Part shown: positions 3,926 to 64,000 of the stretch, one piece after another | Numbering within the stretch: the stretch's first letter is position 1 | How the letters are laid out: the number at the start of each line of letters is the position of its first letter | DNA from: Juglans regia | Taxonomy: Eukaryota > Streptophyta > Magnoliopsida > Fagales > Juglandaceae | Direction of reading: 5' to 3' | Assembly (NCBI RefSeq): GCF_001411555.2 | Contig: NC_049907.1 | Span: 4,100,243 to 4,164,242 of the forward strand | DNA: 64,000 nt | Notes under the pieces: generated by a model | Database searches by the model: none | What the model was told of the DNA's origin: nothing | What the model saw: the letters and a program-made list of their open reading frames with translations, nothing else | Made by a program: the position numbers and the translations under genes

Positions 3926-5307
3926 TAGGGGTGGGCAAAATTTTTGAGTTCCAAACAACGTTCAAGTTTCGACAAGCTTCAACTCTAATAAAATCAGAGT
4001 TTGTGGAATTCAGAGTCAGAATCAAATTCCAGTAGTTGAAATTCGGGGTCAGAGTTGGAGCCCATGTGGGCTCCAAACCTCGACTTTTTTTTATAAAAAT
4101 TGGATTCTTTTGTTCCAGGTGACATTCGCTCGAGTGACGCTTGAGTGTGGCTTGAGTGAACAATCTATATTTTAGAATATAGATTGTTCGCTCGAGCCTA
4201 TTTGCTATTCCGATCGAAGTCGGAGGGCGTTTTGACCTCTAACCCCAGTCAGAGTCAGAGGTCGGAGGTGGGTATTTCGACTCTGTTGGAGTTAGAACAC
4301 ACTAATAAGTCTAGCTTAATGTGAGGATGATAAGTAGTATTTCTCTAATACAGACACAAACACACACACACATACATATATAATACCAATTTACAAAAAT
4401 ATAATAACATGTAATTAGACACTAGATGTAAGTCTAGTGAAAAAATAAGTTATAAATAAGTTAGACACTAATATAATATAATAACATGGAATACTATAGT
4501 ATAATAACATGTAATTATACACTAAGGGCAGATTGAGGGGTGATATGAAAATTTTGTGTTTTGTTTTAGTGTTTAAAATATTATGTTTTAGTATTATTAT
4601 TGTATTAGGATTTGAAAAAATTGAATTGAGATTTGAAAAAGTTGAATTGTTTATTATATTTTGTATGAGGATTTGAAAAATGTGTAATGATGAGATGATA
4701 TTTTTGTGTTTCATCCCAGCCCCCAAACCTGCCCTAAAAGTAATATATTTTTTTATTGGCTTCAGGTGTACGGAACAACCTCTTGACTAATCTCGGGATT
4801 GCACAGGCCCTCAGTATGGAGTTTCTCGCAAGTGCATCTTGAGTAATTCAAGGAAAAATTTCCCCAGTCCGATAGCCCCTAGAGATTGTTTGTACCAAAT
4901 GAGATTTGAAGTTTAGATCTAGGGGGAGCATACCACTTAACACTAAAAATAATATGTAATACTATAGTATGATAATATGTAATTAGACACTATAGTATAA
5001 GTTAGTATAAAAATAAGTTAGATATTAGTATAGAAGTAAATTAGTAGTGAATGATTTAATTTTAATTTTTAATTTTTTTGAGAAATTAATATTTGAAAGC
5101 CCACAATTTTTTTAAATGGGTTAAATATAAAGTTAAAAAAATGAAGCTTAAAGCTGAAAATTCAAATCCAATTCCGCTCTGACAAGTCGGAATTGGAGTC
5201 GGATCTGAGCCTATAGAAGATGGAGTCGGAGTTCGAATCCGAACTTCGACAAATTCAAAATTGAATATCCCTAAATTCGACTCCGACGAAGTCGGTGCTC
5301 ACCCCTA
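3926..5307. mobile_element. Element A of the TAGGGGTG-ended MITE-like family
   Basis: The left end reads TAGGGGTGGGC and the right end GCTCACCCCTA, an inverted pair. Subterminal parts are rich in GAGTCGGAGT-type words in opposite orientations at the two ends (about 3960-4280 and 5160-5300). No transposase is encoded. I could not find a matching 8-bp target duplication, so the exact ends are less certain than in copies B and C. A second, AT-rich MITE lies inside at about 4520-4738. Confidence 0.55.
4520..4738. mobile_element. AT-rich MITE nested in element A
   Basis: The ends AGGGCAGATT and AACCTGCCCT are inverted. The body has the words TTGAATTGTTTATTATATTTT and GATTTGAAAAA that recur in the MITEs at 21753-21942 and 23829-24035. 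Confidence 0.5.
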
Positions 5308-6103
5308 ATTATTGTTACTGTTATTACTCATGTATAACATGTGCAAAGTACACACTATCAAGAAAGGAAAACGATACTCTTACTACTGGTTCTTACTGCT
5401 CGATGTCATCGTTGAAATTTTTTATTTTATTTTATAATTTTTATTTTTATTTAGTGATTAAGAAATTATTTTTTAATAATATTATAATTTTTTATTTTTT
5501 TAAAAAAATATTTAAAAGTATTAAAAAATACATATATATAAAAAAAAAGAACCAATTATAACTAAGCTGGCAGTAGCTCTGGGAGCGGTGGGCGTAGAAG
5601 CCTCCATCAAGAAAATGTGGATTTTTTGTATACTCCTCTAGCTTCACGACAAAAATGCCAAGGCCATATTTGAGGAGCATGAAAATTTTTAAAGTTAATT
5701 ATAATTTCCTTTTCAAATATCGAACACGAAATATCTTTCCGTTCAGATTTTCAACCTTTTTTTCATTTTACTGTTACCTAATAATTCAAACACAAAAATC
5801 AATAAACATTTTACAATTTTCAAAACAAGCAAAACATAAAATCTATACAATTTTTACCAACTTCAAAATAAAAAAAATATTAAAAAATAATATTCAAATA
5901 ATTTTTTAACTTTATCTATTTAATTTCAAAAATTTCAATGCAATATTTATTTTAAAATATAATTTTATTTAACTTTTTTACTCATTTTTAAATTTTAATA
6001 AAATATTATTATTTAAAGAGTGGGGCTACTTTGCCGCCCACTCTTACCGCTGGGCTTACCGCCCAGTGTTTTTTTTTCTTTTTTTTTTCACATTTTTTAA
6101 TAC
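5308..6103. other. AT-rich intergenic stretch
   Basis: Long A/T runs and short chance ORFs. A short phrase about pairing GCGGTGGGCG (near 5585) with CGCCCACTC (near 6037) hints at an old foldback element, but I cannot delimit it. Confidence 0.3.
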
Positions 6104-9035: not shown

Positions 9036-12000
9036 TCCCCCGCAAGATGGAGAATAGAAATTAACTATTCCCATCTTGGAGAGGTGTAACTGTAGAAGGT
9101 AAGAGGGTAATGCTTTAATGAAAATGTCAACCAACTGGGTTTGAGAAGAAACATGAGCTGTTGTAATAGTTCCTGCTTGAATTTGATCTTGAATCAAGTG
9201 ACAATCAAGTTCAATGTGTTTCGTTCTCTCATGAAACACTGGATTTGCAGCAATATGGACGGCTGCCTGATTATCACAAAAGAGGAGGGCAGCTTGTGGA
9301 TGAGAGATGCCAAGGTCTTGAAGTAAATATCGAAGCCAAGTTAATTCAGAGCAAGTGGTAGCCGTGGACCTATACTCAACTTCAGCTGAGGACCGAGAAA
9401 CCACATTTTGTTTCTTGGATTTCTAAGAAATCAATGAGTTGCCTAAGAATACACAATAACCTGTAGTTGAGCGACGAGAGTCTGGGCAAGAGGCCCAATT
9501 CGAATCACAATAAGCTTGGAGCTAAAACTGAGATGAGGAGGAAAGAAAAATTCCTTGTCCAAGAGCTGCTTTGATTTACCTTAGAACCTTATATACTGCT
9601 GCCAAGTGAGTTGAAGATGGTTTATCCATGAATTGACTGAACAATTGAATTGCAAAACATAAGTTTGGTTGAGAGATAGTAATATATAAAAGTCTACCAA
9701 TAAGCTTTCTATAAGTGCTTGGTTCAAAAAGAGAAGTGCCTTCATCTTTGCTGATTTTAAGGTTTTGATCAAGAAGTAGCTTGAGGGGTTTGCAATCGAG
9801 CATACCAGAATCAGCCAAGATATCTAAGGCATATTTCCTTTGAGAAATGTGAATGCCTTTAGATGATCTAGCAATCTCTAGGCCCAAGAAATAACATAGG
9901 AGGTGGATAAGATGAACAAATAGATAAGGGTGACTCTAGAGGAGAAGGTGATGGGGGAAGTGTGGAATTTTGGAAAGGGAAAATGGACTTATGAAAAATT
10001 ACATCCCTTGAAATGAAAATGGTGTGGTTGGTAAGGTCTAACAATTTGTATCCCTTGATTTCAAAGGGATAACCAAGAAAAACACATTTTCGACATCTAG
10101 GATCAAATTTCTTTCTACCATTTAAAAGGGTGGCTGCAAAACATAAGGAACCAAATACTCTCGTGTGAGCATAAACAGGTTTTTTGTTAAACAAAAGCTT
10201 ATATGGAGTTTTATTATTTAAAAGTGGGGTTGGAAGTTTGTTGATGATATACATGGCTGTCAAAAGATAGTCACTCCAATATTCTAAAGGCAAATTAGCT
10301 TGGAAACTAAGGGCACGAGCTACATTAAGCAAGTGCTGGTGTTTCCTCTCAACAACGCCATTTTGTTGAGGGGTTTCCACATAGCTTTTGTGATGAATAA
10401 TGCCTTTGTCATTAAAAAAATCTGTCATGCAAAACTCAACACCATTATCACTTTTCAGGGTTTTAATTTTGAGTCTAAATTGTGTTTCCACCAAATTATA
10501 AAAGGACTTGATACATGCTCTAGTTTCAGTTTTGGTAGAAAGTAAATAAAGCCAAGTGGTACGAGAGAAGTTATCCACTATTGTCAAAAAATATTTAGAA
10601 CCATCATGTGCAATAGTGGGACTAGGTCCCCATAAATCACAATGGATTAGTTCAAATATTCTTGATGAAAGATAAACATTGTTAGGAAAGGGTAATCAAT
10701 GGAATTTTGCTAATGAACAAATATGACAAGGTTTTTCATTAATGGAATATGTGTGCTTGCTTACAATAGGATCAAAAATCAACTTTAATCTAGAAATAGA
10801 TAAATGACCCAGGCGACAATGCCATAGATCAGCATGAGCAACAGAGTTAACAACAGAAGTTGAAGAAATAAGATCTGTGTGAGTGTTGTGAGTATAATCT
10901 GAGAGGGATTGTGCAAGGGTTGAAGGAGAGATGTCTGTGCAGACCAAGTAATATAGGCCATGTCTTAGCTCACCCTTCCCAATCAATATCCAAGAAGGCA
11001 GGTCCTGAATGAAACAACAATTTGAGAAAAAAAGCAAACAACAAGTTAGAAAATGTGTTAACTTGGTTGTTGAAATTAAATTAAATGAGAATGCAGGGAC
11101 ACAAAGAACATCCCTCAAAATGATAGTACTTGTCAAATGAAGGGTACTAACATGTGTTATCGAGGTTGAGCTTCCATTGGGAATCTTGATTGAGTAAGCA
11201 ACAACTGAGGTAATTGAAGTGAAAAGAGAAGTGCTACAGACCATATGGTCTGTGGCACCTGTGTCAATTATCCAACTGGAAGAAGAGTTATGCAGGGAAC
11301 TCTGTGTGTGTGTAGAGAAAGATGTATATATACAAGACATTTTGGAAGAATGGACAGGAGAGTGAGAGGGTTGAGGTTGAGTGCCAGAGTGAAGAACATT
11401 TGCTGCAATTGAAGAATCCTGAGGTTGAATTAAAGACAAAAGCTACTGGTATTAAAGCTTGGTCAAACCAATCCTATCATCACTAACAATTTCAGATTCA
11501 GTAGCATTAGAATGAGTGGCCTGATTAGTAAGAAAACCAGGAGTCTGCTGCTTGGCATGAAACTTGTGACCAGGTTGGTAACCATTCAACTTGTAGCACT
11601 TGTCGATTGTATGGCCAGTTAAATTAAAATGTGAACAAATGGGGGCAGTTGCATTGCCAAGTTTGAAGCCGTTTTCCAATCAATGGCCAAAGATTTTGCA
11701 GTGGCTGCAATAGGGCCTTTCCTCTTTGGCAGAAGGATTTGTTTTGGAAAATCTTGAAGGGGAAAAATGTTTCTTAATGGCCAGTGCCATGGTTTCAGTG
11801 GAAGGGACAGTGGAGATTATTTGGTGGTGCCTTTCTTGTTGCTGAATGAGGGAGAAGAATTTTGTGAGAGGGGGAATGAGGTCCATCAACATAATCTGGT
11901 CTCAAATAGGAGAGTAGGAGTCATGTAAGCCCATTAGAAATTGAAGAACACAGTCTCTCTGGTATCGATCCAAATGTGTTTTCATGGTGCCACAACTACA

Positions 12001-24035: not shown

Positions 24036-24164
24036 TTTCCTTAATTCTGCATTTTAGAAGAAGGGGTTTTGTAGGATACAAAATCAAAACCCAGTTAATA
24101 TGTTTAAAAGACATTGACGGACCAACCTAATAACGACAAATGATAGCTAATAACCGGACCTATA

Positions 24165-24207
24165 TTGACTTGAATGAGAAATGGTTGACTTCACTTCCCT
24201 TATATTA
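24165..24207 (+). promoter_or_regulatory. Putative promoter: two W-boxes and a TATA box
   Basis: TTGACT occurs at 24165-24170 and 24185-24190, and TATATTA at 24201-24207, about 95 bp before the ATG. TTGAC is the WRKY-binding core, common before defence receptor genes. The paralogous promoter keeps the distal box and the TATA (62158, 62199) but has TTGTGG at the proximal one. Confidence 0.45.
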
Positions 24208-24300
24208 GTTGCTTAACACCCGTAATTATACTCACTAGCTACTGTCATCATTTCACGCTTCTTCCTAAACATTCTCCTCCTAGTTCTATCTCCTGCACTC

Positions 24301-27300
24301 ATGGTGCTCATAGGAAATATGTTCCCTCTAATGCTATTGAGTTTTCTGTTTGTGCAGTACTCATGCATGTTTCAATTGATCCAATCTTTTAACAATTTTA
24401 CTGACCAATCTGCTCTCATTGCCTTCAAATCTCGTATCAGTTCTAGTCCAAATGAAACCCTCTTGGCTACTAACTGGTATGCACCAAACTCGATCTGCAA
24501 TTGGATTGGGGTCTCCTGCAGTCGACGTAGGCAAAGAGTCACCGCTTTAGACCTTTCCTACATGGGTCTCCATGGCACCATTTCTCCTCATATTGGTAAC
24601 CTCTCCTTCCTAGTCTCACTTCATCTTTTTGACAACAGCTTCTTTGGTTTTATTCCGCATGAGATCAGTCGTCTACATCGCTTGAGAATACTCATCTTGT
24701 CATTCAATCAATTGGAAGGAAGCATCCCTCCTTCCATTCATAATTGTCGAAAGCTTCGCAAGGTAAGTTTTGATTCGAACCGTCTTATTGGCGCAATTCC
24801 ATCTTCATTTGGCAATTTGTCAATGTTGGTGTTCTTGAATTTGCAGCGTAATAGTCTCATTGGTCCATTTCCTCCAGTCATCTTTAACATATCTTCTCTA
24901 AACATTTTTGCTGTTACAGCTAATCACATATCGGGAGCTCTTCCGAATGATCTTTGTGGCCGCTGTCCTAATCTTCGGATACTTCATCTCTCGAGTAACA
25001 AATTTGGTGGTCAACTTCATTCGCAATTTAATAATTGTCAGGAGCTTGAACGTTTAGGTTTGTCATACAATAAATTCGATGGGAGTATTTCAAAAGCTCT
25101 AATTGACAGTTTACAAAAGCTTGAATTGCTAGCTCTTGGGGGTAACAACTTCACTGGTATCATACCTCATACCATAAGCAATTTGTCAACATTGCATACA
25201 TTTGGAATTGAGGATAACCACATCCAAGGAAGCATTCCCACTGATTTGTGGAATCTTCAGAAGCTAATTGTTTTGGTTTTGGGAAGTAATAACTTCAAAG
25301 GGGAAGTACCTCAAAAAATTTTCAACCTTTCTTCTTTACAACGTATCTCTTTTGAGCATAATTCCCTCTCTGGATATCTTCCATCACCAGATCATATGGG
25401 GCAATCTTGCCCTAATCTTGAAGAAATTATACTCAGTAGAAACAAACTTAGTGGCCATATCCCATCCTATCTTTCAAATTGTTCCAAGCTCATCAAAGTA
25501 GACCTTGCTGGAAACTTATTCTCTGGACCAATTCCCAAAAGTCTGGGAAACTTGAAGTACCTCCAACATCTTTTTTTGGGTTCAAATCAGCTAATAGGCT
25601 GGGAGGCTAGAGATCAAGAGACCAATTTCATTTCATCTTTATCCAATTGTAGATTTTTGACAAGTTTATACTTAAGCTATAATCCATTGGATATAATAAT
25701 TCCAGGTTCCATTCAAAACTTTTCTACTTCCTTTCAAATCTTTGTTGCAGACAATTGTCAAATAAGGGGTCATATTCCTATGGGAATGGGATTTTTGAAA
25801 GGCCTGATCTGGCTTGATTTGGGAGATAACAATTTGATTGGAAATATCCCTTTCACATTTGGTGGTTTGGAAAGATTACAAAGATTGCATCTTTACAATA
25901 ACAAGATTGAAGGATTGATTCGAGAAGAGTTATGCCAATTAAGAAATTTGGGAGAGTTGGATCTCTCAAACAACAGAATCTCTGGATTCATCCCAAATTG
26001 CATTTCAAACCTCAATCTTCTAGTAAAGCTAAACTTGAGTTCTAATAAACTTGAATCATCAATACCATCAAATATATGGAGCCTTGAAAATCTTTCTTTA
26101 TTGGATCTGTCATTGAATTCCCTTGGTGAATATTTGTCTTCGAATATGAAGAAATTGGACACTCTTGAATATCTGGATTTATCAAGAAATCAAATTACTG
26201 GAGAAATTCCAAGCATCATTGGAGCATTTGAAAGCTTGAGGTATCTTGACTTTTCAAACAACTCCTTTCAAGGAGGCATTCCACAATCTTTTGGGAACTT
26301 AAAAGGATTAGATATCTTAAATCTTTCTTACAACAATCTTTCTGGTGCAATTCCTAAATCCCTTGAGGCACTTCCATATCTCAAATACTTGAATTTATCT
26401 TTCAACAAGCTTGTAGGAGAGATTCCATCCGGTGGTCCTTTTGTGAACTTCACGGCGGAATCATTTTCAGGAAATAGTGCACTTTGTGGGAATCGAATTT
26501 TTAGAGTTCCACCTTGTCCAACGACTCCTACCAACCAACGATCAAAGATGAAAGATATTTTGCTCAAATGTATTCTTCCTACGACTGTGGCAATTATAGC
26601 TTTCATAATGTTGGTTTATTTCTTGAGAAGATGTCGGAAACGTAATATGGAGATGCCCACTTCACTTAATCCATTGCCTGCACTGGAACATAGAATGATA
26701 TCATATCAAGAGCTTTGCCAAGGGACAAACAACTTTTGTGAAAGCAACTTGCTTGGAGTTGGAGGTTTTGGCTCCGTGTACAAAGGAATACTTTTTGACA
26801 GGACAATTGTTGCAGTAAAAGTTCTAAGTTTGCAACTGTCGGGTGCTTTCAAAAGTTTTGATGCAGAATGCAAAGTGTTACGGACAATTCGACATAGAAA
26901 TCTTGTTAAGGTCATAACTACATGCACTAATCCCGAGTTTAGAGCATTGGTGCTGGAATACATGTCGAAGGGCAACCTTGAAAGATGGTTATACTCTTAT
27001 AACTATTGCTTGGATCTTCTACAAAGAATAAATATTTTGGTTGATGTTGCATCAGCCTTAGACTATCTCCACCACGGCCAATCAGAATCTATATTGCATT
27101 GTGATTTGAAGCCTACAAATATCCTTTTGGATGAGAACATGGTTGCACATGTTGGTGATTTTGGCATTGCAAAGATTTTAGCCGAAAATAAAGACGCAAC
27201 ACACACCAAAACTCTTGGTACCATTGGCTACATCGCACCAGGTACGTACGTACATGAGTTTACCCTAATTGTCAAAAGGCTAAATAATAGTTTGCTGATC

Positions 27301-31046: not shown

Positions 31047-31185
31047 TAGCCAAGATAAACAAGGATTAGCTACTGAGGGATGAGATTCTCAATTTGTCAA
31101 AATCTAATGCATCCACACAGACCACACCCATGCCATAAAAATTCATCTACCCTAAAATCGAGCTAAAATGACCCTCTATGGTTGG

Positions 31186-32946
31186 ACTTTACCTATGCGA
31201 AAATTGATGGATTTTACCCTCTATGAGTGTGTTTTCCCTACCAAAGGTTTTGTGCAAAAAATTGAATGCTTTGATGGCAAAGTTTTGGTGGGGATCTCAA
31301 GAAAAAGCTTCAAAAATTCACTGGAAGAAATGGGACAGCCTGTGTATGAGCAAAGCAGAAGGAGGTATGGGATTAAGGAATTTGGCAAGTTTCAAGTTAG
31401 CTCTTCTAGCTAAACAAGTATGGCGAATTCTAATGATTCCATCATCACTGGCAGCAAAGATTTTGCAGGCAAACTATTTTCCTAATTCCTCTATACTACA
31501 GGCTAAACTCGGGTCAAGACCATCTTTTACTTGAAGAAGCATATTCTTTGCAATTGATTTAGTCAAGGAAGGGTGCATATGGAGAGTGGTAGATGGAAAA
31601 AAAATAAAAGTGTGGAAGGATAAATGGATTCCCAGACCTGGCCTTTGCAAAATTCAATTACCAATGAAAGTTTTATCAGAAAATGCATAGGTGGCAGATT
31701 TAATTGATCAACAAAGTGGATGGTGGAATATGCAACTTCTAAAAGAGGCTTTCAATGAGGAAGAGGCAAATGAGATTTTGAATATACCTGTTTCACAGAT
31801 TGCTAGTGAAGATAAATTGGTGTGGAAAGGTACATCAAACGGTGAATTCTTTGTTAGAAGCGCATATCACTTGTATAATCAGCAACAAAGAAGTAAGATG
31901 GGGGAATCATCATCAAATGGGAATCAAAGTGAGGTATGGAAACAAATATGGAAGTTAAAAACAAGAAATTCTGTTAAAGTCTTTATGTGGCGGGCTATCA
32001 AGGATGTTTTGCCTACAAAAGTTAATATGTACAAAACGAAGATAACAACAGATCCTTTATGCCCCATATGTCAGAATGAAAGTGAAACCCCAGCTCATAT
32101 ACTCTGGTCATGCCCATCTGCACAAGATGTATGGAGTGTAGGAAACATGAAGATACAAAAAGCTACAATTTTAGAGGAGGATTTTGGATCCATTTTTCTT
32201 TCTATGCTACAAAGAATAGACCAAGATGAAATCTGTACTTTTGCAGCAATAGCAAAGGCTGTGTGGAATAGGAGAAATCAATGGATTTTTGAAGGATGTT
32301 TTATACCACCAACAATTTTAGTCAACAGAGCTCAGCAGGCTCAGCAAGACTTTATACAAGCATAAGGGGAGCAAGGTGGATCTCAAAGAGTAAGTCATCA
32401 CTAGGTCATTACAACATGGGAAGTTCCACCACCAAATCGGCTTAAACTGAACTGGGATGTTGCTATTAGAGAGGCAGAGCATAAAGTTGGAATTGGAGTG
32501 GTGATTCGGGACAATGATGGTGATATTTTAGCTTCTCTAATGCAGCCACTCTTTTTTTGTTCTCAGGCAGCTATTGCAGAACCAAGGGGTATGGTTATAG
32601 CATCCATGCTTTGTAAAAGGTTGGAATTGCAGAATGTGATTCTTGAAGGCAACTCAATCCCAGTTGTCAAAACTATGAGAAATAAGAAAGATCAAAATGG
32701 GATACTTAGCTGCTTGGTGGAGGATGCTAAAGCTGCTTTGGTAGATATTAAATGGGATATTAAACATGTAGAGAGGGAGACAAATATGGTAGCACATCAA
32801 CTAGCTAAGGAAGCTGTCTCACTGGGTTATGAAATTCTAGATATAGATTATGTAAACCCAGGTATTAGGTCTCTTGTAATGGCTGAAGGCCATAACACTG
32901 TTTGATGCAATGAAGAATGTTTGTGTTAAAAGAAAAAAAAAAAAAC
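31186..32946 (+). pseudogene. 5'-truncated LINE fragment (zf-RVT and RNase H) with poly(A)
   Basis: Starts in the RT thumb region (SVFSLPKVLCKKLNALMAKFWWG). It continues through MSKAEGGMGLRNLASFKLALLAKQ and the reverse-transcriptase zinc-binding segment (VKVFMWRAIKDVLPTK ... CPICQNESETPAHILWSCP, about 31980-32120). It ends in a plant-LINE RNase H (LNWDVAIRE, GNSIPVVKTM, ERETNMVAHQLAKEA) up to 32905, followed by an A-run at 32932-32945. Stops lie near 31535, 31690 and 32365. CCCTCTATGGTT before the left end (31174-31185) resembles CCCTTTATGGTT after the tail (32951-32962), a probable decayed target duplication lying inside the LTR to the right. Confidence 0.85.
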
Positions 32947-33162
32947 GATCTCCCTTTATGGTTCTTCCCGATTGTAATAACAACAATTGTTATAAACCCA
33001 GAACTGGAATGAAATGTAATAAGGGAAAATGCTTTGTAAATGACACCATACCCTTATTTGAAAGGCCGCATATTGTCTTCTTGTCGGTGACGTCGTTTCA
33101 TCACTTTAGCATTTAGCTTCTTGTTACCTCCCAAATTCTTGACCAGGTGTGGCTTCATAACG
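32947..33162 (-). mobile_element. 3' LTR (internally deleted) of the chimeric LTR element
   Basis: Aligns with both ends of the 481-bp LTR at 36004-36484 (for example AACAATTGTTATAAACC and GGGAAAATGCTTTGTAAATGA) but lacks about 250 bp found there at about 36116-36370. The purine tract lies just inside, at 33163-33175 (minus strand AAGTGGGGGAG). Its outer end is cut by the LINE. Confidence 0.8.
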
Positions 33163-33415
33163 AACTCCCCCACTTAAAGAACCTTGTCCACAAGGTTTAT
33201 AGCATTGGTGCAATTGTTACACACTTTCAAGAGAAGAGTAAAAAAAATAAAAGAAACCCCCTTTACTCATTGTCAAGATACTGACATCAAATGTCCAACC
33301 ACCAGGTCAAAAACAAGGATATTCTTTTCACCCAAAGATATACATGCTAGCATGAAAACTACAATAGCTACAGCCACAACTATTGCAAAGGAGGGACAAG
33401 TGAAATCATTTCCAA

Positions 33416-33530
33416 GTCGAGTATGATAAACACAGTCATACATATCAACCCCTAAAACACTACAAACTGCAATGTCCAATGGATAACCAATACCCATAAC
33501 ATATCGTGATTTATCAGCTAAACCATTGAA
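33416..33530 (-). pseudogene. Queuine tRNA-ribosyltransferase catalytic-subunit fragment
   Basis: The minus-strand frame reads ADKSRYVMGIGYPLDIAV, then LGVDMYDCVYHTR. It matches the conserved block of eukaryotic/bacterial TGT (RYLMGVGYPLDIVV...GVDMYDCVxPTR), whose Asp is part of the active-site region. About 38 residues only. The upstream neighbour sequence is a kinase piece, so this is a captured fragment, not a gene. Confidence 0.85.
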
Positions 33531-33549
33531 GGTTCTAACCACCTGTCCC

Positions 33550-33690
33550 ATTCATGGCCTCTTGGCAGCTGACTGTTGTGCACAAGTAGCAGCTACCTCA
33601 TTAATATAGAGCATTTCACTCTCAACATAGTTCATGTTGAGCCTTGGATCTGCCAAATCTGTAAATTCCTTGTTATTAAGTACATCCTTT
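33550..33690 (-). pseudogene. PERK-type receptor kinase C-lobe fragment
   Basis: The minus-strand frame gives LADPRLNMNYVESEML, then SAAKRP*MGQVVRTF. This matches the end of the kinase domain in proline-rich extensin-like receptor kinases (DPRLxxNYVESEM...HSAAKRPRMxQVVRA). One stop sits at the Arg of KRPRM. It runs without a gap into the queuine transferase piece at about 33548. Confidence 0.75.
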
Positions 33691-33694
33691 AAAT

Positions 33695-34025
33695 TGTTTC
33701 ATGCATGTGACCCATGATTAGTGACATTGAAAGCAGGAACAAACAATACCAACTCCTTGTTGCCAGCAAGATTTGCAATATGTTTGTGAGGAGGCCCCAT
33801 AAGTATGGCATTTGCTCCCAACTTCTGTTTGCATCACACCCATTCATTAACAGTTCCATTCTGTTGTTGAGTTATGAAGTTATCAACAATAGCTTATTCA
33901 GTAGGATCCTTTCCAATCAACACAAGGCCAATGATCTTGCTGACAATCTCAACTACCCTCAACACCCCTTTTCCAAGGGAGTTTGACCCTCTCTTAATTC
34001 AAGGGCCTCATAAATTCCTTGGTTG
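33695..34025 (-). pseudogene. Enolase fragment (cDNA-like)
   Basis: Minus strand: GIYEALELREG, then LIGKDPTE, then NGTVNEW, then [11 protein letters not shown], then [21 protein letters not shown] and a GSHA-like block, about 110 residues of the N-terminal half of enolase in order. About 17 residues between ANAIL and the YKHIANLAG block are missing. Plant enolase genes are rich in introns, and none interrupts this stretch, which argues for an mRNA origin. Stops and frameshifts are present. Confidence 0.88.
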
Positions 34026-34714
34026 TGGCAAGGAAATTTGTCTATCATCACTATTATCACAGGTGGATGCCCAGTGACACTCCTAATCTTTTTGCCTTAA
34101 TAAACCACCATCGAGATTAGCATGTATTCTACCATCCCTTTTAAGATCAAATTCAAAATATAAAAAATGAGATACATTATCCAAAGCTTGGTTCACCAAT
34201 TGATTCCTCACCATTTCTTTTCCCCTTCCTCTATCAAATGATATCCCCAAATGTTTAGTAAATTTATCCCATACCACCCAAAAACACTCCTAAGTGGCAA
34301 TATATCAAGCAATTGAGATGCAATATTCACCTTTTCATCCAATTTATCACCATACTTTGAAAGAGACTCCTGCCACTCAACAACCAGCAAACAAACACTA
34401 GCTATATTAATGGCCTTAAACAAGTTCAAGTAGCCTCTCAGGTGTAGATTCAAGGAACTCAAGCTCACGGTTCCATAAATCTTGGATCGGGTTATCCAAG
34501 CATGCATGGATATCTTGCCTTTTGCAAAGAATTGCTCTATTGAGATTCCTATCCAACACCTCAGAACAAGCAAGGGAAGGGGGCCTTTTTTTTTTTTTCG
34601 GACTTTCCTTTCCAAACTAATAACCCCAATTTGAATGTGGTTGATTTTTGTCTTTCTACTCTCTTAGCAAAGGCGGTATCAAATTGTTTGTGAGAGATTG
34701 GAGAGTTCACTTAC
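34026..34714 (-). other. Unidentified captured block 1
   Basis: Lies between the EF-1alpha and enolase pieces. Long partly open minus-strand frames include WNRELEFLESTPERLLELV (about 34460-34400), EWQESLSKYGDKLDEKVNIA (about 34380-34315) and LVNQALDNVSHFLYFEFDL (about 34200-34140). The helical, charged look suggests protein-coding origin, but I recognise no family. Confidence 0.4.
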
Positions 34715-34965
34715 CATGAGTATTTTGAAGGAGACTTCTGTCACAATTTCATCCTACCTTGCTTTTGAGTATTTTGGATTGTGGCATCCATCTTATTGCA
34801 ACAACAAATCATTTGCTCAACACCAAGTGTGAAAGCAAGGAGAGCATGCTCACGGGTTTGTCCATCCTTGGAAATACCAGCTTCAAAACCACCAGTGGTG
34901 GAGTCAATAACAAGAATAACACAATCAGCCTGAGAGGTTCTAGTAAACATGTTCTTAATCTCCTT
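34715..34965 (-). pseudogene. EF-1alpha (GTPase domain) fragment
   Basis: Minus strand: [18 protein letters not shown], then [20 protein letters not shown], then [20 protein letters not shown]. This is the segment of translation elongation factor 1-alpha spanning the NKMD guanine-specificity motif. About 80 residues; it starts just after the DxPGH motif position, which is replaced by foreign sequence. Confidence 0.92.
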
Positions 34966-35044
34966 AAGGAGTCCATCGAGCACAGAATCAACAAGCCCAA
35001 TGCACTCAGTGGAATGCCTTTCATAGAACGAGATGAGAAATGTG

Positions 35045-35272
35045 GAGCCACCGCCAATAACTTAAGAGCGATTTGCAATTTGACTATGGAGTGGGAGTCA
35101 CCCTTGGCTAGAGACCCTTTGAGCTATTTGAGAGCCTTTTTGTAGTTCATAATGTAAGTCTGGAGGTGCTTGTGATGGTGGAACAACAGGATCTTACCAT
35201 TGATGGTCGGTTCGATTGCACCATATTCGTAAGGAGGATTGAGAATAAAAGAAATTTGAAGACCACGATGGC
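35045..35272 (-). pseudogene. Mn-superoxide dismutase fragment
   Basis: Minus strand: YEYGAIEPTINGKILLFHHH, KHLQTYIMNYKKALK, then [15 protein letters not shown] and a shifted FNGGG-like block. This is the N-terminal helical hairpin of mitochondrial MnSOD, including the metal-ligand His of LHHxKHHxTYI (here FHHHKHLQTYI). Stops interrupt it. About 70 residues are contiguous without an intron. Confidence 0.85.
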
Positions 35273-35592
35273 CTAGATCTAGGGTGGTTTTTTCTGGTCC
35301 ATTGGGATCAGAGAGCTAAGGAAGATAGGAGGAGCAGAGCAACTAAAATTTACCACCACGAGGATCAATTGATACACCCTCCCATTAATTTCAACCTCAT
35401 ATGATTCCAACACCTCTTGCAGACCATTCTCAAATATCAGCTTACAAACTGTCTTCTCCAATATCAGCTTAAGGACATTGTTACAGCCATCGACATTAAG
35501 CCGAGTGAGAACCCCGCTCCCCCTGGTTATGCCGTTGTCCCAAATCAGAACGCCCCGGTCATAAGTCACAATGTTGTTCTTTTCGCCCATTT
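35273..35592 (-). other. Unidentified captured block 2
   Basis: A long minus-strand open frame (35590-35282) includes YDRGVLIWDNGITRGSGVLT and EVLESYEVEINGRVYQLI. No family recognised. It sits between the histone H3 and MnSOD pieces and is likely another captured transcript segment. Confidence 0.4.
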
Positions 35593-35755
35593 ATCGACTT
35601 GGCTCTTCTTGTACAGTGCACAGGCTAGTGTCTTTGAAGAGCCCCATCGAGTACGCTTCGGTCTCCTCCTTAAGAGTGGTGATGGCGCTGCTCATAAGGC
35701 AGAGGTTGGATTTGAAGTCCTATGCAATTTCACAAAGAGCCTTTGGAATGGTAGT
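35593..35755 (-). pseudogene. Histone H3 fragment
   Basis: Minus strand: PKALCEIA*DFKSNL, then LMSSAITTLKEETEAYSMGLF, then KDTSLCTV. This follows the histone-fold order of H3 (REIAQDFKTDLRFQSSAV...[20 protein letters not shown]). One stop replaces the Gln after REIA and many residues have drifted. Confidence 0.78.
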
Positions 35756-35828
35756 GTCTTTTGTTTCCTCTTTTTCTCCTATAAATACGGAATTTTCTTT
35801 TCCTTTCTATTGAACCTACTGATTAGCA

Positions 35829-36003
35829 ATATTGTTCTGATTTGCAAGTAAGGTCCGCACCATCTCCATTAGCTGATTCAGGCGGTCCTTGATCTCCAGA
35901 AGACTCTCCTCATGAGGAGCATCCACCTGCCACTGCAAGGACTATTGTTGTTGTTTAAAACGAGTGTTGTCGGTCATCCGGATCATTAGCTCTAGATACC
36001 AAT
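35829..36003 (-). mobile_element. Primer-binding site and gag-like start of the chimeric LTR element
   Basis: The minus strand reads ATTGGTATCTAGAGC at 36003-35989, one inserted base away from the initiator-tRNA-Met primer site TGGTATCAGAGC. An ATG at 35977 starts MTDNTRFKQQQ, then DAPHEESLLEIKDRLNQLME, a coiled-coil-like opening common in Gypsy gag. After about 50 residues it gives way to captured sequence. Confidence 0.7.
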
Positions 36004-36484
36004 TGTTAAGTCTCTCAAATCTCCCTCTAGGGTTCTTCTTGATTGTAATGATAACAATTGTTATAAACCTCAGAACTGGAATGAATTGTAATAAGGGAAA
36101 ATGCTTTGTAAATGAGAAACTGTAATTGTATTCATAAAATGAAGAACATAACGGGATTGATTCGAGGGAATACTATCCTCCGAAGATGACTCCTTACAAA
36201 TGTCATTCAATGACTCTCTTTCTCTGTTTACATTTCTTATATATTCCAGTAACTGCCTACTTGGCCCTACATGTAAAATTACAAGCAGAAACACTACAAA
36301 CGAAAGAAAGATTCTAACAGACATAACTAATTAAATGCATCATTTCGGTCATGGGGCCATATGACACACATGCCCTTATTTAAATGGCCGCATATTGGCT
36401 TATTTTCTAGGATGTCATTTTGTCACTTCAACACTTAGCTTCTTTTTACCTTTCGAAATATTTACCACACGTGTCTTCATAACA
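36004..36484 (-). mobile_element. 5' LTR of the chimeric LTR element (481 bp)
   Basis: Read on the minus strand it starts TGTTATGAAGAC and ends GAGAGACTTAACA, with TGTTA/TAACA inverted tips, directly before the primer site. Confidence 0.82.
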
Positions 36485-36801: not shown

Positions 36802-37066
36802 TGTATACGTATTTATTTTATACTTTATAGTCCTTTTACACATGTCAATGTAACTTGTAGTATTCTCTTTTGTATAAGTGTAATGCTGATTGCTTTTTGT
36901 ACATAGTATAAATAGCTAGGGCTAGTATTATTATTTTCAATTCATTCCATTCGGGCTATAGATTTTACAGAAATAATATTTTCTCTTTTCCCTCAGACTT
37001 CGAGACTCTTCTTTTCCCCTTAGGGCTCTGCCCTTTCATATCCTCTCTAGGGTTTCATTCTTTACA
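36802..37066 (+). mobile_element. 5' LTR of Copia element 2 (265 bp)
   Basis: Starts TGTATACGTATTTATTTTATA, contains a TATAAATAG promoter box at about 36907 and ends GTTTCATTCTTTACA just before the primer site. It differs from the 3' LTR at roughly one position in ten, so the insertion is old. Confidence 0.85.
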
Positions 37067-37080
37067 TGGTATCAGACGTT
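37067..37080 (+). mobile_element. Primer-binding site of Copia element 2
   Basis: TGGTATCAGACG directly follows the LTR; complementary to the 3' end of initiator tRNA-Met. Confidence 0.85.
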
Positions 37081-37088
37081 TTGCTTCT

Positions 37089-40000
37089 ATGGCGCCGAGT
37101 CACAAGTCTGTATCTGAGGATTCTACGAGCCTTTTCTTTCTCCATCCCAACGATAGCCCTGTCATTCTTCTGGCCACTCAGCCACTCGTTGGCGACAACT
37201 ACCATACCTGGTGCCATTCCATGGCTATGGCCTTATCTGCAAAGAATAAGCTCGGTTTTGTTGATGGTTCCATCATCAAACCCTCTGATTCAAATGTTCC
37301 ACTTCTCTCTCCGTGGCTTCGTTGCAACAATATGGTGATATCTTGGCTTTTAAACTTTGTTTCTCCTGATATCTCTACTAGTATTTTGAATATTACTACT
37401 GCACTTGAGATCTAGTTAGATTTGAAGGAACGTTTTTGTCAAAAAAATGGTCATCGTATTTTCAGTTATAGAAATCGATTTCTGCCTTATCTCAAGGGCC
37501 ACTCTCTGTTAGCACTTATTTTACTCGCCTCAAAGCTCTTTGGGATGAGTTAGCTAATTACAAGTCTGTTCCTGCTTGTTCTTGTTGAGCCGTGTGTACA
37601 TTGAACTAATATGTTCAACAAGAGCATGTTTTACAGTTTTTGATGGAATTGAATGAATTTTTTGCATCTACTCGTGCTTAGACATTGCTTATGGATCCTT
37701 TGCCCCCTTTGAACACGGTTTTTTCACTTGTTTTATAAGAAGAACAACAATGAGAAATTTTTGTTATTCCTCTTCAACCTGTTGATTCTCATGTTTTTGT
37801 TTCTAAAAATGATGTATCCAGATATGTAAAATACTTCTCTAAGAAGGAAAGGCCAGTATGTAGACATTGTAGAATTACTGGTCATGTTATTGAAAAATAT
37901 TATAAACTCCATGGTTTCCCACCCCGGAAACAAACCAAAACCTAAGCAACAGTTTATGGTCAATCAGGTTGCCAATTCTGACAACCATTCCTCGGCTGTT
38001 TCTCCTTTCTCTTTGATGGAGGCTCAATATCAACAGTTAATGTCCGTGCTTCATCCTCAAAATCCCTTTGATGAATCCTCTCATGTTGTTAATGCAGTAA
38101 CCTCGAACTCATCCTTTTCTGGCACATATTTTCTTCCAATAATCCTTATTATGTTTTTTCTTTCAATACATACACTATTTTTTATTCCAATTCTTGGATT
38201 CTTGACACAAGAGCCACAGATCATATGGTTCCTTCTATTGATTATTTTACATCCATTACCAGTGTTGTACATTCCTCTGTTAAACTTCCAAATGGCCAAT
38301 CCGTGTCAGTCACACATATTGGTTCCATTCGAATTTCCGAACATCTCATTTTAAATGATGTTCTATGTGTACCTTTCCTTACTTTCAAATTGATTTCTAT
38401 TAGTAAGCTTACTCAATCACTCACTTGTTGTTTTTTGTTTTCTGTTGACAATTGTTTCATCCAGGACCTCATTCATTGGAGACTGATTGGAGTGGGTAAA
38501 CAGCAAGCCGGAGGCCTTTATATAATGCAACAACCAGGCTCTTCTTTTTCTAAAACTCATGCTTTATCTGCTTCATATATTGCCCGTTTTCTTAATCATT
38601 TACCAATACATACTTGTTCTGCATCTTTTAAGTGCTCACTGTTTGACCTTTGGTATAATAGATTGGGTCATCCTTCAAATTCAAGGATGCTGTTTGTGAA
38701 TACTTTTGTTCCAAATATGGTTGTTTCAAATAATCCTTGTATGATTTGTCCTTTAGCTAAACAAAAAAAGTTACATTTCCCTCATATTGCTCAATTATCT
38801 GCTGCTCCATTTGATCTTGTACATTGTGATAATTGGGGGACCATATTCTGTGTATTGTTGAAGGTTACATTTTTTTAAACTATTGTTGATGATTCATCTC
38901 GTGCTACATGAGTCTACCTTATTAAAAATAAATCTGAGGCTTCTCTTCTTATTAATTTTTTTTAAGATGATAAAAAATCAATTCAATCTTAAAATAAAAA
39001 CATGTCGCACTGATCATGGTATTGAGTTTTCGCTTTCTAATTTTTTTTCATTCTAAAGGAATTATACATCAACACAGTTGTGTTAAAACTCCATAACAGA
39101 ATTCTATTTGGGAGAGAAAAAATCAGCACATACATAATGTAGCCCGAGCCTTAATGTTTCAATCTCACTTGCCTATTCAATTTTGGGGTGACGCTATTTT
39201 AATAGCCACCTATATTATTAATAGACTACCTGCTCCTCTCTTAAACAATAAGTCTCATTTTGAGATTTTGTTTAAAACATCTCCATCTTATACTCATTTA
39301 AGGACTTTTGGTTACGTATGTTTTGCTTCTACTCTACAAAGATCTCAGACTAAATTTGATCCTAAAGCTTGTGCTTGTGTTTTCCTTGGATATCCTTTTG
39401 GAATCAAAGGATATAAACTCATTGATCTTAAAACAAATCAGTGTTTTACTTCTAGACATGTTGTTTTTCATGAACTTGTTTTTCCTTTCATTTCTGAAAC
39501 TTTTTCATCAATTTCTTCTACAAATCATTTTTTTCCTTGTGCATCTTCAACATTAGACTCTTTTTCTCATGTGTCTTCAACAGTGCTGTCCTTTATTGAT
39601 TCTTCTTCTTCTTCACTTGATAATTCCTCATTAACTTCTCTCCCTTTTACTATTGAAATTCCAACTCCACCTTCACCAATAATTTCAACCCCTTGAAGAT
39701 CCAATAGAATCAGAAGACCTCCTGGTTACTTGCAGAATTTTCAATGTCACTCCTCTACCTCTGCCCACTCATCATCAGTTTCTCCAGCAGGTTCTTCTTC
39801 TTCCCCTTCTCTATCACACACCAAATATGATATCTCACAATTCATTTCTTATGCTCGTCTTTTTTCTGCTCATAAATCCTTTGCTTTGTTCATCATTGCT
39901 GATACTGAACCTAAGTTCTATCATCAAGTAGTCAAACACTCTCATTGGAGAGATGTTATGACTGCTGAGATCTCAACCTTGGAAACAAATAACACATAGA

Positions 40001-41414
40001 TTGTTACTTCATTACCTCATGATAAAAAACACTTAAGGTTGTAAATGGGTCTACAAAATTAAGTATCGTGCTGATGGTTCAATTGAAAGATACAAGGCAA
40101 GGTTGGTTGCTAAAGGTTATACCCAACAAGAAGGTTTTGATTATTTTGAGACCTTCTTTGGACTCTACTAGCTATTGCTGCAGTTAAAGGACGACATCTT
40201 ACTCAACTTGATGTCAATAGTGCTTTTTTACACGGAGATTTATCTGAAGAAATGTATATAAAATTGCCTCCTGGTTTTCATATTAAAGGGGGTCCAAGGT
40301 TTGTTAGCTCAACAAATCTCTTTATGGTCTGAAATAAGCTTCCAGACAATGGTTTTCCAAGTTCTCATCTTCTCTTCTTGATTTGGGCTTTGTACAATCC
40401 AAATCTGATTATTCTCTCTTCACCAAGTCCTCGGGTTCTTTCTTCTTTGCACTTCTTGTTTATGTTAATGATATTCTCATAGCTAGTAATGATGTGAATT
40501 CTATGGAGCATTTGAAGTCCTTGCTTGATGATAAATTCAAGCTTAAAGACCTTGGTCAGCTCAAATATCTTGGTTTGAAAGTGGCTAGATCTCTTGCAGG
40601 TATTTCTTTATGCTAGAGAAAGTATTCTTTAGAAATTCTTCAAGATGCTGGTTTGCTTGCTTCTAAACCAACCTCTTTTCCCATGGAGCAAAATATTAAA
40701 TTAGGTAAAGATGATGGAGTTTTACTCCCTAATCGAACTGTCTATCGTAGACATATTGGGAGACTACTCTACCTTACATTGACTCGACCTAATCTATCTT
40801 ACTTAGTGCATAAGTTGAGTCAATATATGGCTTAGCCTAGGCAGCCTCATCTTACAGTAGCTTATAGAGTTTTGTAGTATGTTAAGAGCACCCCTGGTCA
40901 TGGTCTCTTCTTTCTAGCTGTTAATTCTCTGTCCCTCAAAGCCTTTGTAGATTTAGATTGGGTTTCTTACCCTGACAGTCAATGTTCTACCAGTGATTAT
41001 TGTATTTTTCGTGGAGATTCTCTAGTTTTTTGGAAGACCAAGAAACAATCAACTATTTCTCATTCTTCAGCAGAAGCTTAATATCGTTCAATGACATCCA
41101 CCACTTGTGAAATCATTTGGTTTCTTACACTTCTTTATGATTTTGGCATATCACATTCTTACAATGTTCAACTTTTTTGTAATAGTCAGACTGCTTTACA
41201 TATTGCTGCCAAGCCTATTTTTCCTGAACGAACGAAGCATATAGAAATGGACTGCCACTTCATCCGTAACAAAATCCAAGCTGGAATTATCAAGACCTTC
41301 CATCTAGTTTCTCATCATCAACTTGTTGATGTCTTAACCAAAGCACTTGGCCTCCAACAATTTCAAAATTTAGTCACCAAGATGGGAGTTCATTTTATCT
41401 ACTCTCCATCTTGA
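37089..41414 (+). pseudogene. Ty1/Copia gag-pol, complete order but multiply broken
   Basis: ATG 37089 opens gag (MAPSHKSVSEDS ... LVGDNYHTWCHSMAMAL). A zinc knuckle CRHCRITGHVIEKY (about 37858) has Tyr for its fourth Cys. The protease reads WILDTRATDHM (about 38190), with Arg replacing the Gly of DTGA. An integrase remnant spans 38640-39200. RT blocks [20 protein letters not shown] and [15 protein letters not shown] follow near 40045-40240, and the catalytic box is FALLVYVNDILIAS (about 40460), YVND instead of YVDD. RNase H ends with FCNSQTALHIAAKPIF, and the purine tract TTGAAGTGGGG is at 41411-41421. Many stops and frameshifts are present. It cannot supply its own enzymes. Confidence 0.9.
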
Positions 41415-41421
41415 AGTGGGG

Positions 41422-41680
41422 TATTACATATATATTTTATATTTTATAATCTTTTTACACATGTCAATGTAACTTGTAGTATTCTTTTTTGTGTAAGTGT
41501 AATGCTGATTGCTTTTTGTATATAGTATAAATAGGGCTTGTATTATTACTTTCAATTCATTCCATTTGGATTGTACATTTTACAAAATAATATTTTTTCT
41601 TTTCCCTCAGATTTCGAGACTTTTATTCACCCCTTAGGACTCTACTCTTTCATCTCCTCTCTAGGGTTTCGTTCTTTACA
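41422..41680 (+). mobile_element. 3' LTR of Copia element 2 (259 bp)
   Basis: Begins TATTACATATATATTTTATA after the purine tract and ends TTTCGTTCTTTACA. Aligns end to end with 36802-37066. No matching 5-bp target duplication was found (TTTAA on the left against ATATT on the right). Confidence 0.85.
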
Positions 41681-61715: not shown

Positions 61716-62157
61716 CCCATCTAAAAAGATTTTATAAAAATAAAATTACAAATTGATGTAAGCCGTAGTACATTAAATTGTAAAAATTCTTTTTATAGCA
61801 ATACTTACACTTTATATCGAGCCATATCAATTTTTAAATTTATTTTTATAAAATTATTTTATAAATATATCACTTCTCTAATTAGAAAATGGAAAAATGA
61901 AAATCATTTTAACAAGGTTTTTCAATGTAACGAGATTTGTGCATCAAGAAAGGAGAATAATTCACGTTTTTGTTTGAGTATTTCTGAAATCAAATTTGCT
62001 CATTCTCGAAGTTATTTATTTTTTATTTTGAGTCCAAAAAAATGAAAAATAAATATGGATAAATTTAATTCATTAACATTCTGTCGAATTTTTACTATTT
62101 TGGAAAATTTAGTTATGCATAATTAACGATAAATGACTGGTAAAAGCCGGACCCATA

Positions 62158-62205
62158 TTGACTTCCATGAGCCTTAATGGTTGTGGCTTCACTTCCTTTA
62201 TATTA
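62158..62205 (+). promoter_or_regulatory. Putative promoter of LRR kinase 2: one W-box and a TATA box
   Basis: TTGACT at 62158-62163 and TATATTA at 62199-62205, co-linear with the promoter at 24165-24207. The proximal W-box position reads TTGTGG (62181-62186). Confidence 0.4.
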
Positions 62206-62291
62206 GTAGCTTAACACTGCTCTGTTATCATCTTCACTACTTCATTTCATGCTTCTTCATAAACATTCTCATAATCCTCTCTCCTGCACTC

Positions 62292-64000
62292 ATGGTGCTC
62301 ATAGGAAATCTGTTCCCTCTATTGCTATTGGGTTTTCTATTTGTGCAGTACTCATGCATGTTTCAATTGATCCAATCTTTTAACAATTTTACAGACCAAT
62401 CTGTTCTCATTGCCTTTAAATCTGGAATCAGTTCTAGTCCAAATAAAACCATCTTGGCTACTAACTGGTCCACAACACCAAACTCAATCTGCAATTGGAT
62501 TGGGGTCTCCTGTAGTCGACGTAGGCAAAGAGTCACCGCTTTGGACCTTTCCTACATGGGTCTCCATGGCACCATTTCTCCTCATATTGGTAACCTTTCC
62601 TTCCTAGTCTCACTTGATCTTTCTAACAACAGCTTCTTTGGTTTTATTCCGCATGAGATCAGTCATCTACATCGCTTGAGAATACTCATTTTGTCATTCA
62701 ATCAATTGGAAGGAAGCATCCCTCCTTCCATTCATAATTGTCAAAAGCTTCGCAAGGTAAGTTTTGATTCGAACCGTCTTATTGGTGCAATTCCATCGTC
62801 ATTTGGCAATTTGTCAATGTTGGAGTTCTTGAATTTGCAGCGTAATAGTCTCACTGGTCCATTTCCTCCGATCATCTTTAACATATCTTCTCTAAACGTT
62901 TTTGCTGTTACGTCTAATCACATCTTGGGACCTCTTCCGAATGATCTTTGTAGCCACTGTCCCAATCTTAGAGCACTTTATTTCTCGGATAACAAATTTG
63001 GCGGTCAGCTCCATTCGCAATTTAATAATTGTGGGGAGCTTACAATTTTATCTTTGTCATTCAATAAATTCGATGGGAGTATTTCAAAAGCTCTAATTGG
63101 TAATTTACAAAAGCTTGAAATCCTATATCTTGGAAGTAACAGTTTCACTGGTATCATTCCTTCTACCATATGTAATTTGTCAAGGTTGCAAGAATTCGGA
63201 ATTGAGGATAATCACATCCAAGGAAGCATTCCGACTGATTTGTGGCATCTTCAGAAGTTAATTGTTTTGTATTTGGGAAGGAATAACTTCAAAGGGGCAG
63301 TACCTCAAAAAGTCTTCAACCTTTCTTCTTTACAACGCATCGACTTCGAGCAAAATTCCCTATCTAGTTATCTTCCATCACTAGATTCAGGGCAATCTTG
63401 CCCTAATCTTGAAGAACTTTTACTTGGTAGCAATAAACTTATTGGTCAAATCCCATCCTATCTTTCAAATTGTTCCAAGCTCATCATAGTAGACTTTCAT
63501 GAAAACTTATTCTCTGGATCAATTCCCAAAAGTCTTGGAAACTTGAAGAACCTCCAACAACTTTTTTTGAATGCAAATCAGCTAATAGGCCGTGAGGCTA
63601 CAGATCAAGAGACCAATTTCATTTCATCTTTATCCAATTGTAGATTTTTGACAAGTTTATACTTGAGCAATAATCCATTGGGTATAACAATTCCAGATTC
63701 CATTCAAAACTTTTCGGCTTCCTTTCAAATCTTTCTTGCAGGCAATTGCCAAATAAAGGGTCATATTCCTATGGGAATGGGTTTTTTGAAAGGCTTGATC
63801 TGGCTTGATTTGGGAGGTAACAATTTGACTGGAAATATCCCTTTCACAATCAGTGGTTTAGAAAGATTACAAAGATTGAATCTTTACAATAACATGATTG
63901 AAGGATTGATTCTAGAAGAGATATGCCAATTAAGGAATTTGGGAGAGCTAGATCTCTCAAACAATAGAATCTCTGGAGTCATCCCAAATTGCATTTCAAA
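62292..64000 (+). CDS. Second LRR receptor-like kinase, 5' part, open to the window edge
   Basis: ATG 62292 opens MVLIGNLFPLLLLGFLFVQY, a signal peptide nearly identical to that of the gene at 24301, followed by the LRR cap (NWIGVSCSRRR) and leucine-rich repeats. The frame stays open for 569 codons to position 64000; the rest of the repeats, the transmembrane helix and the kinase lie beyond. It is co-linear with residues 1-about 568 of the first gene, with small indels (an extra Ser/Thr-Thr in the cap, a shorter SLDSGQS segment). Changes concentrate in variable positions of the repeats, as expected for ligand-facing residues, but I have not measured this. It is a tandem paralogue of the same subfamily, probably a plasma-membrane immune receptor. 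Confidence 0.9.
   Translation, partial: MVLIGNLFPLLLLGFLFVQYSCMFQLIQSFNNFTDQSVLIAFKSGISSSPNKTILATNWSTTPNSICNWIGVSCSRRRQRVTALDLSYMGLHGTISPHIGNLSFLVSLDLSNNSFFGFIPHEISHLHRLRILILSFNQLEGSIPPSIHNCQKLRKVSFDSNRLIGAIPSSFGNLSMLEFLNLQRNSLTGPFPPIIFNISSLNVFAVTSNHILGPLPNDLCSHCPNLRALYFSDNKFGGQLHSQFNNCGELTILSLSFNKFDGSISKALIGNLQKLEILYLGSNSFTGIIPSTICNLSRLQEFGIEDNHIQGSIPTDLWHLQKLIVLYLGRNNFKGAVPQKVFNLSSLQRIDFEQNSLSSYLPSLDSGQSCPNLEELLLGSNKLIGQIPSYLSNCSKLIIVDFHENLFSGSIPKSLGNLKNLQQLFLNANQLIGREATDQETNFISSLSNCRFLTSLYLSNNPLGITIPDSIQNFSASFQIFLAGNCQIKGHIPMGMGFLKGLIWLDLGGNNLTGNIPFTISGLERLQRLNLYNNMIEGLILEEICQLRNLGELDLSNNRISGVIPNCIS

Follow-up and report, generated by a model that had tools for sequence, protein, structure and literature searches.

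The capture of host genes by long terminal repeat (LTR) retrotransposons is already known. Bs1 of maize is an LTR element without a full pol gene. A review describes it as containing segments of three host genes and a hybrid reading frame (PMC13317346). The soybean terminal-repeat retrotransposon in miniature (TRIM) GmaRetroS15 is similarly described as an LTR-bounded element with exon-only fragments of three host genes, and gene-bearing TRIMs as being 1,172–1,449 bp long with 5-bp duplications (PMC4717578). LTR elements with host gene fragments have also been described in maize, rice, and sorghum (PMC2774510, PMC3726574). Here, we describe an element of ~3.5 kb located at positions 32948–36484 of a 64,000-nucleotide stretch of the Juglans regia genome (NC_049907.1, positions 4,100,243 to 4,164,242), hereafter the window, and reading from 36484 to 32948, along the minus strand. 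Fragments of eight host genes, all in the same orientation, follow one another in its body, whereas the precedents carry three genes.

Like Bs1, the elements described here hold exon-only fragments from several host genes, the spliced state being established for two pieces; the likeness is one of descriptions only, and Bs1 has three host genes, whereas the window copy has eight and the sets vary among the other copies. In contrast to the TRIMs, they are 2.6–5.5 kb long with LTRs of ~390–510 bp, which places them outside the TRIM size range; they also surpass the TRIMs in gene number, have a core segment in common, and show open frames that span several genes. Titles and the beginnings of abstracts, a scope that leaves aside subscription papers and preprints, contained no description of such a family.

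The features of the window copy are listed below from its 5′ to its 3′ end. L numbers denote the 26 further loci fetched from the host assembly (L009–L034), among which L015, L017, and L028 are host genes.

36004–36484, minus strand: 5′ LTR, 481 bp, with the ends TGTTA...TAACA
35989–36001, minus strand: primer-binding site (PBS) TGGTATCtAGAGC
35755–35977, minus strand: Gag-like N-terminus MTDNTRFKQQQ..., start codon at 35977, common to L013 and L026
35612–35754, minus strand: histone H3 fragment (PDB 5e-11; Pfam 0.0014, below the cut-off)
35477–35600, minus strand: block of ~120 nt without a convincing Pfam or PDB match
35366–35476, minus strand: methionine aminopeptidase 2 (MetAP2) fragment with an internal deletion (tblastn 1.3e-5)
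35044–35334, minus strand: MnSOD fragment, from the 5′ untranslated region (UTR) to the end of exon 1 (Pfam 2.3e-11; parent gene L015)
34960–35043, minus strand: beta-tubulin fragment (tblastn 0.041 in the window copy)
34727–34959, minus strand: EF-1alpha fragment (Pfam 1.8e-12, PDB 3e-22; parent-type gene L017)
33990–34690 (about), minus strand: block B, a piece of open reading frame forming a core segment common to many relatives
33690–33977, minus strand: internally deleted enolase fragment (PDB 7e-18; tblastn with a plant enolase 5e-33; Pfam below the curated cut-off)
33516–33685, minus strand: PERK-type kinase fragment (best PDB match BAK1, 2e-4; parent-type gene L028)
33417–33515, minus strand: queuine tRNA-ribosyltransferase (TGT) fragment (Pfam 4.8e-11)
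33195–33416, minus strand: tail module, parts of which are common to L009, L020, and L027
33163–33194, minus strand: Ty3-like 3′ end with CTTGTGGACAAGG and the polypurine tract (PPT) AAGTGGGGGAG
32948–33162, minus strand: 3′ LTR, with ~245 nt missing from the middle and the final ~15 nt also absent

The pieces were identified by Pfam searches, sequence searches of the PDB, and tblastn with plant proteins, for which none of five shuffled control proteins was listed at an E-value of 0.05. A preliminary description of this DNA had named six host pieces on one strand (histone H3, MnSOD, EF-1alpha, enolase, PERK kinase, and TGT); all six were matched on the minus strand, and MetAP2 and beta-tubulin bring the total to eight. 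These two account for part of what it had left as two nameless blocks; the rest comprises the ~120-nt block and block B, and block B matched nothing in Pfam or the PDB. For the MetAP2 piece, 12 of 13 PDB matches were MetAP2 (best E-value 0.02), and we take the stretch 35423–35476 to belong to it as well, from its similarity. The top PDB chain for the MnSOD piece was the Arabidopsis enzyme, and the piece was 79.6% identical to L015. The homologous tubulin piece of L011, which lies behind the same MnSOD junction, matched beta-tubulin at 1.7e-28; alpha-tubulin was rejected as its identity, as it scored only 3e-13. Beyond the host genome, searches of plasmids returned archaeal EF-1alpha genes only, and searches of viral contigs returned nothing, as did Rfam and tRNA scans. 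With Pfam, the reading frames on the antisense strand of the window element yielded only a single match, at chance level (0.062).

The host assembly was then searched with the element. Six EF-1alpha loci (C7, C12, and four on C14) were listed with both pieces, and in each of them the match was split by a gap at a point where the element is continuous, and the exon join of the EF-1alpha gene L017, AACAAG/ATGGATG, was found exactly in the element. In the PERK-type gene L028, an intron follows GGGACAG and is precisely absent from the element, which reads GGGACAG/GTGGTTAG. Since these host introns fall precisely at points where the element runs on without interruption, the pieces of EF-1alpha and PERK were copied from spliced RNA. 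Their DNA identities to L017 and L028 were 87.5% and 87.6%, respectively, and the true parent of either may be a paralogue. The MnSOD piece offers no test of splicing because it begins in the 5′ UTR and does not extend beyond exon 1. Pieces on different strands or derived from intron-containing genomic copies, either of which would have contradicted the preliminary description, were not encountered: the strands agree and two pieces are spliced. Many host fragments per mobile unit are typical of Pack-MULEs and Helitrons, and transduplication of genomic DNA in their style was therefore weighed; it is refuted for the EF-1alpha and PERK pieces, the two that can be tested, by the absence of introns, and the termini are LTRs, which leaves this explanation with next to no probability. 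Purifying selection on the EF-1alpha piece was considered and dropped, as synonymous substitutions in the parent would also be expected to produce its mismatches by codon position (7, 5, and 19).

The ends of the element are those of an LTR retrotransposon, as had been proposed from two LTRs, a primer site, and a purine tract. Two pairs of direct repeats join the LTRs (32948–33043 with 36019–36115, 92% identity; 33040–33161 with 36361–36483, 77% identity), the PPT reads GTGGGGGAG, and the element end runs CTTGTGGACAAGGTTC...AAGTGGGGGAG. Paired LTRs with TG...CA ends are present; in the window copy, one of the two LTRs is truncated and its outer TG is CG. We take the PBS to be of the initiator-tRNA-Met type. 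The Gag likeness of the product of 35755–35977, which had no Pfam match, is likewise our assumption. We also use the label Ty3-type presumptively, from the PBS, the PPT, and 5-bp duplications in relatives; reverse transcriptase is absent, so the label implies no phylogenetic placement.

A degenerate LINE-like stretch (LINE, long interspersed nuclear element), with frames judged by eye, lies at ~31150–32945 on the plus strand, and its poly-A tail abuts the truncated 3′ LTR. The target-site duplication of the window copy is unreadable for this reason, and the missing end of the 3′ LTR was looked for upstream of the LINE-like stretch and was not found. This neighbour, together with the chimeras of two or three transcripts described from Magnaporthe (MINE/WEIRD; PMC2104539), where fusions of several transcripts are ascribed to template jumps, raises the possibility that the chain is a chimeric retropseudogene made by jumps of a LINE reverse transcriptase and lying between LTRs by chance. 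However, no poly-A tails are found at the piece ends in the window copy, the LINE tail is outside the element, and the paired LTRs, PBS, PPT, and 5-bp duplications of relatives are those of an LTR element; MINE/WEIRD chimeras, moreover, use LINE machinery, have at most three parts, and are without LTRs. This explanation is largely refuted and, in our view, highly improbable. The paired LTRs, PBS, PPT, and target duplications of relatives also lead us to reject two unrelated insertions flanking old pseudogenes, which the preliminary description had named as a way in which it could be wrong.

Block B gave 44 matches at 40 distinct places in the genome, window included, many of them partial (40 of the 44 candidates were scored). 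The element is thus not the single oddity that it had been taken for, but one of a family. Seven elements have paired LTRs, namely the window copy, L009, L010, L018, L023, L032, and L033; self-comparison of the remaining fetched loci revealed no full LTR pair. Both a PBS after the 5′ LTR and a PPT before the 3′ LTR are present, and several further copies are one-ended, with the PBS end or the PPT end alone. Block B occurs in every paired-LTR element except L009, which belongs to the family because of its PERK-TGT-tail segment and PPT end. A 5-bp target duplication is perfect in L032 (GTGAC/GTGAC, 5/5 bases), matches at four of five bases in L009, L018, L023, and L033, and was not resolved in L010. 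Divergence between LTRs, as Kimura two-parameter (K2P) distance, was 0.031 in L032, 0.072 in L033, 0.093–0.097 in L010, L018, and L009, and 0.127 in L023; the value of 0.177 for the window copy is based on 218 sites only, its two blocks giving 0.077 and 0.266. As claimed for the window copy, no pol was found: the sense frames of the seven paired-LTR interiors, including the six other than the window, contained no pol domain at E-value limits of 0.5, 0.1, and 0.01. L029, a locus without a recognised end, had a sub-cutoff RVT_3 match (0.0008). Two side observations concern individual copies. In L020, 65 nt from the start of the 3′ LTR recur upstream of the core (3888–3952 and 5389–5453, 94%), possibly a truncated or nested LTR, and L013 and L014 are 97.8% identical over 7.5 kb (C12, 14.54 Mb and 14.42 Mb), a segmental duplication carrying a gag-H3 family copy.

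All six other paired-LTR elements hold at least one host piece, and five hold at least two, the second piece being sub-cutoff in L023 and L032. In one-ended copies, only matches between the recognised end and the core were counted. The host contents of the relatives are as follows.

L009: enolase and TGT (Pfam), PERK (DNA identity)
L010: Rab-type Ras (Pfam), tubulin and EF-1alpha (alignment to the window copy; EF-1alpha also PDB 7e-4)
L018: X8 and Y-family DNA polymerase (Pfam)
L023: RPL18 (Pfam, at the cut-off) and a sub-cutoff kinase match
L032: DNA polymerase B (Pfam; polymerase delta in the PDB) and a sub-cutoff F-box match (0.0017)
L033: beta-tubulin (tblastn 4e-14), with no Pfam match
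L011, one-ended: MnSOD and two tandem tubulin pieces
L019, one-ended: X8
L020, one-ended: ubiquitin-like domain
L024, one-ended: AUX/IAA and RNase PH
L034, one-ended: Rieske match just above the cut-off
L029, no recognised end: CTD-type phosphatase match directly beside the core

The two tubulin pieces of L011 (3963–4583) are a tandem duplication of the beta-tubulin piece with 313-bp spacing and 91% identity. Several matches were set aside: the WD40 match of L034, which lies beyond the PPT and so outside the element; B_lectin in L020, WD40 in L021, a kinase in L034, and RPL18 and OPT in L031, all lying on a side of the core without a recognised end; RRM, DEAD, and signal-peptide-peptidase matches in L026, which has a PBS only and no core; and the Dymeclin match of L021 (0.0038) and the M16 match of L030 (0.0042).

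Different relatives hold different junctions of the window chain. The gag-H3 junction is common to the window copy and L013, the MnSOD-tubulin junction to the window copy and L011, the tubulin-EF-1alpha-block B junctions to the window copy and L010, and the PERK-TGT-tail junctions to the window copy and L009, where 15 extra nt lie between PERK and TGT. In L010, a Rab piece separates the block B core from its sequel, whereas in L018 the two adjoin without interruption. The junctions are therefore inherited, with new pieces inserted into older chains, and the window chain was built stepwise and reshuffled within the family.

We consider it probable that these loci are copies of one family of non-autonomous LTR retrotransposons of the Ty3 type, which has acquired pieces of spliced host mRNAs time and again while retaining its LTRs, primer site, Gag-like start, core segment (in most copies), and polypurine end. 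The element RNA would be packaged together with host mRNAs in particles supplied by an autonomous relative, and the reverse transcriptase would switch from the element RNA to a host mRNA and back, inserting fragments of ~70–300 nt. Element RNAs may recombine with each other in the same way, which would reshuffle the blocks, and copies would decay neutrally after insertion. Template switching inside particles, as put forward in the preliminary description, is plausible without being demonstrated: the tubulin-EF-1alpha junction, read by eye from the tubulin side of L011 and the EF-1alpha side of the host gene, has five shared bases (AGAAC) and 7/9 similar positions.

Several results weigh against this interpretation. 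Microhomology at the second candidate, the MnSOD-tubulin junction, was not supported on reading the L011 sequence, and a spliced junction is proven for two pieces only. No autonomous partner was found, and a DNA-similarity search with the LTR recovered only the window copy and L016; the LTRs are too diverged for a helper to be findable in this way. L012 and L013 were rejected as autonomous partners, as their copia reverse transcriptase and DUF4283/zinc-knuckle domains look like neighbouring elements. Finally, a DUF538 piece lies antisense in L010 (5916–6221, plus strand, 3.3e-18; the scan covered three of the seven paired elements in antisense), and it counts against the model because simple switching onto a sense mRNA does not give such a piece. 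It speaks for serial passive capture, in which processed pseudogenes or read-through transcripts would have entered ordinary LTR elements at the DNA level, by ectopic recombination or 3′ transduction, and open frames would be remnants of coding origin. The sense frame of L010 stays open across this antisense piece (interior 191–838), and that a sense run can span it likewise speaks for passive capture.

Passive capture can be confronted with the reading frames, which had been described as running from piece to piece. The frame of the window copy is broken; long multi-piece frames are found in L009, L010, L032, and L033, and in less decayed copies several host pieces are fused to each other in one open frame. 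In L010 (interior coordinates), 344 codons are open at 1017–2048 through a piece that we take, by eye, to be kinase-like, tubulin, EF-1alpha, and block B, and 224 codons at 2227–2898 through a PPR-like piece, Rab, and the block B sequel. L009 has enolase, PERK, TGT, and the tail in one frame with one stop, and open runs join RPL18 to a kinase-like piece in L023 and a PPR-like to a ubiquitin-like piece in L020. A 228-codon run in L032 comprises polymerase delta, an F-box-like piece, and block B, and 312 codons in L033, in the frame of the Gag-like start and one stop further on, run through beta-tubulin. These runs were picked by seeking long ones and are not an unbiased count. Over the seven paired interiors, runs of at least 100 codons summed to 4180 codons in sense as compared to 1623 in antisense; the same measure under a first-order Markov model had a mean of 285 and a maximum of 858 (500 simulations). 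Block B contained 6 stops in 996 codons (14 copies, omitting L025, a near-duplicate of L024), whereas simulated neutral evolution gave 22.7 ± 4.4. The EF-1alpha piece of L010 differs from the host gene by four deletions (1, 2, 2, and 28 nt) that add up to 33 nt and regain the frame, followed by a 1-nt insertion at its very end.

These results suggest, as the simplest reading, a frame kept open with little demand on amino acids. Insertions preserving a long open frame from the Gag-like start would be favoured, the protein sequence itself mattering little, because the RNA would have to be translated, either for cis-packaging or to escape the decay of RNAs with early stops. A stronger version, which we hold only tentatively and with some doubt, is that the family lives by a translated, ever-changing chimeric protein: selection may hold one long frame open from the Gag-like start while pieces of spliced host mRNAs, captured in frame and shuffled, keep renewing what it encodes, making the family a natural generator of in-frame exon fusions over millions of years.

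Other observations on the frames speak against selection of this kind. The MetAP2-MnSOD junction is out of frame in the window copy, as is the AUX/IAA-RNase PH junction in L024. In PDB searches, the 344-codon run of L010 matched EF-1alpha only, apart from a chance match (0.045), with neither tubulin nor kinase, and the L032 run matched DNA polymerase delta only, with no F-box. Block B mismatches were nearly even by codon position (184/183/209 in 15 copies, two more being too short), and amino-acid constraint is therefore weak or absent; the stop-codon test is itself weakened by common descent among the copies. The totals for the two strands were nearly equal in L023 (625 codons in sense runs and 587 in antisense runs), a result that also speaks for passive capture. 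Host coding pieces, too, bring long open frames of their own. However, several open runs cross at least two host pieces together with sequence of the element itself, which remnants alone would not readily give, and the four EF-1alpha deletions of L010 leave the run in frame. We regard passive capture as unlikely, though not negligible.

The surroundings of the element in the window contain other repeats. Adjoining it, 36806–41680 is an element with 261-bp direct repeats (88% identical), copia-like by eye, and a relic resembling it lies in opposite orientation at 9043–11275. Two copies, LRR (leucine-rich repeat) receptor-kinase-like by eye, at 24131–26009 and 62124–64000, are 89% identical over 1.9 kb.

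Most accounts of LTR elements that capture genes have dealt with a single gene each, and the mechanism has been inferred from few cases. The family described here offers numerous copies, parental genes within the same genome assembly, and junctions that differ in age, so that capture can be measured: the mRNAs that are chosen, the rate of uptake, the sequence features at the switches, and whether fusions must keep the frame. Such natural multi-gene fusions also supply material on how retroposition makes new chimeric genes, and the family is an unusually rich natural record of mobile elements picking up and fusing host genes.

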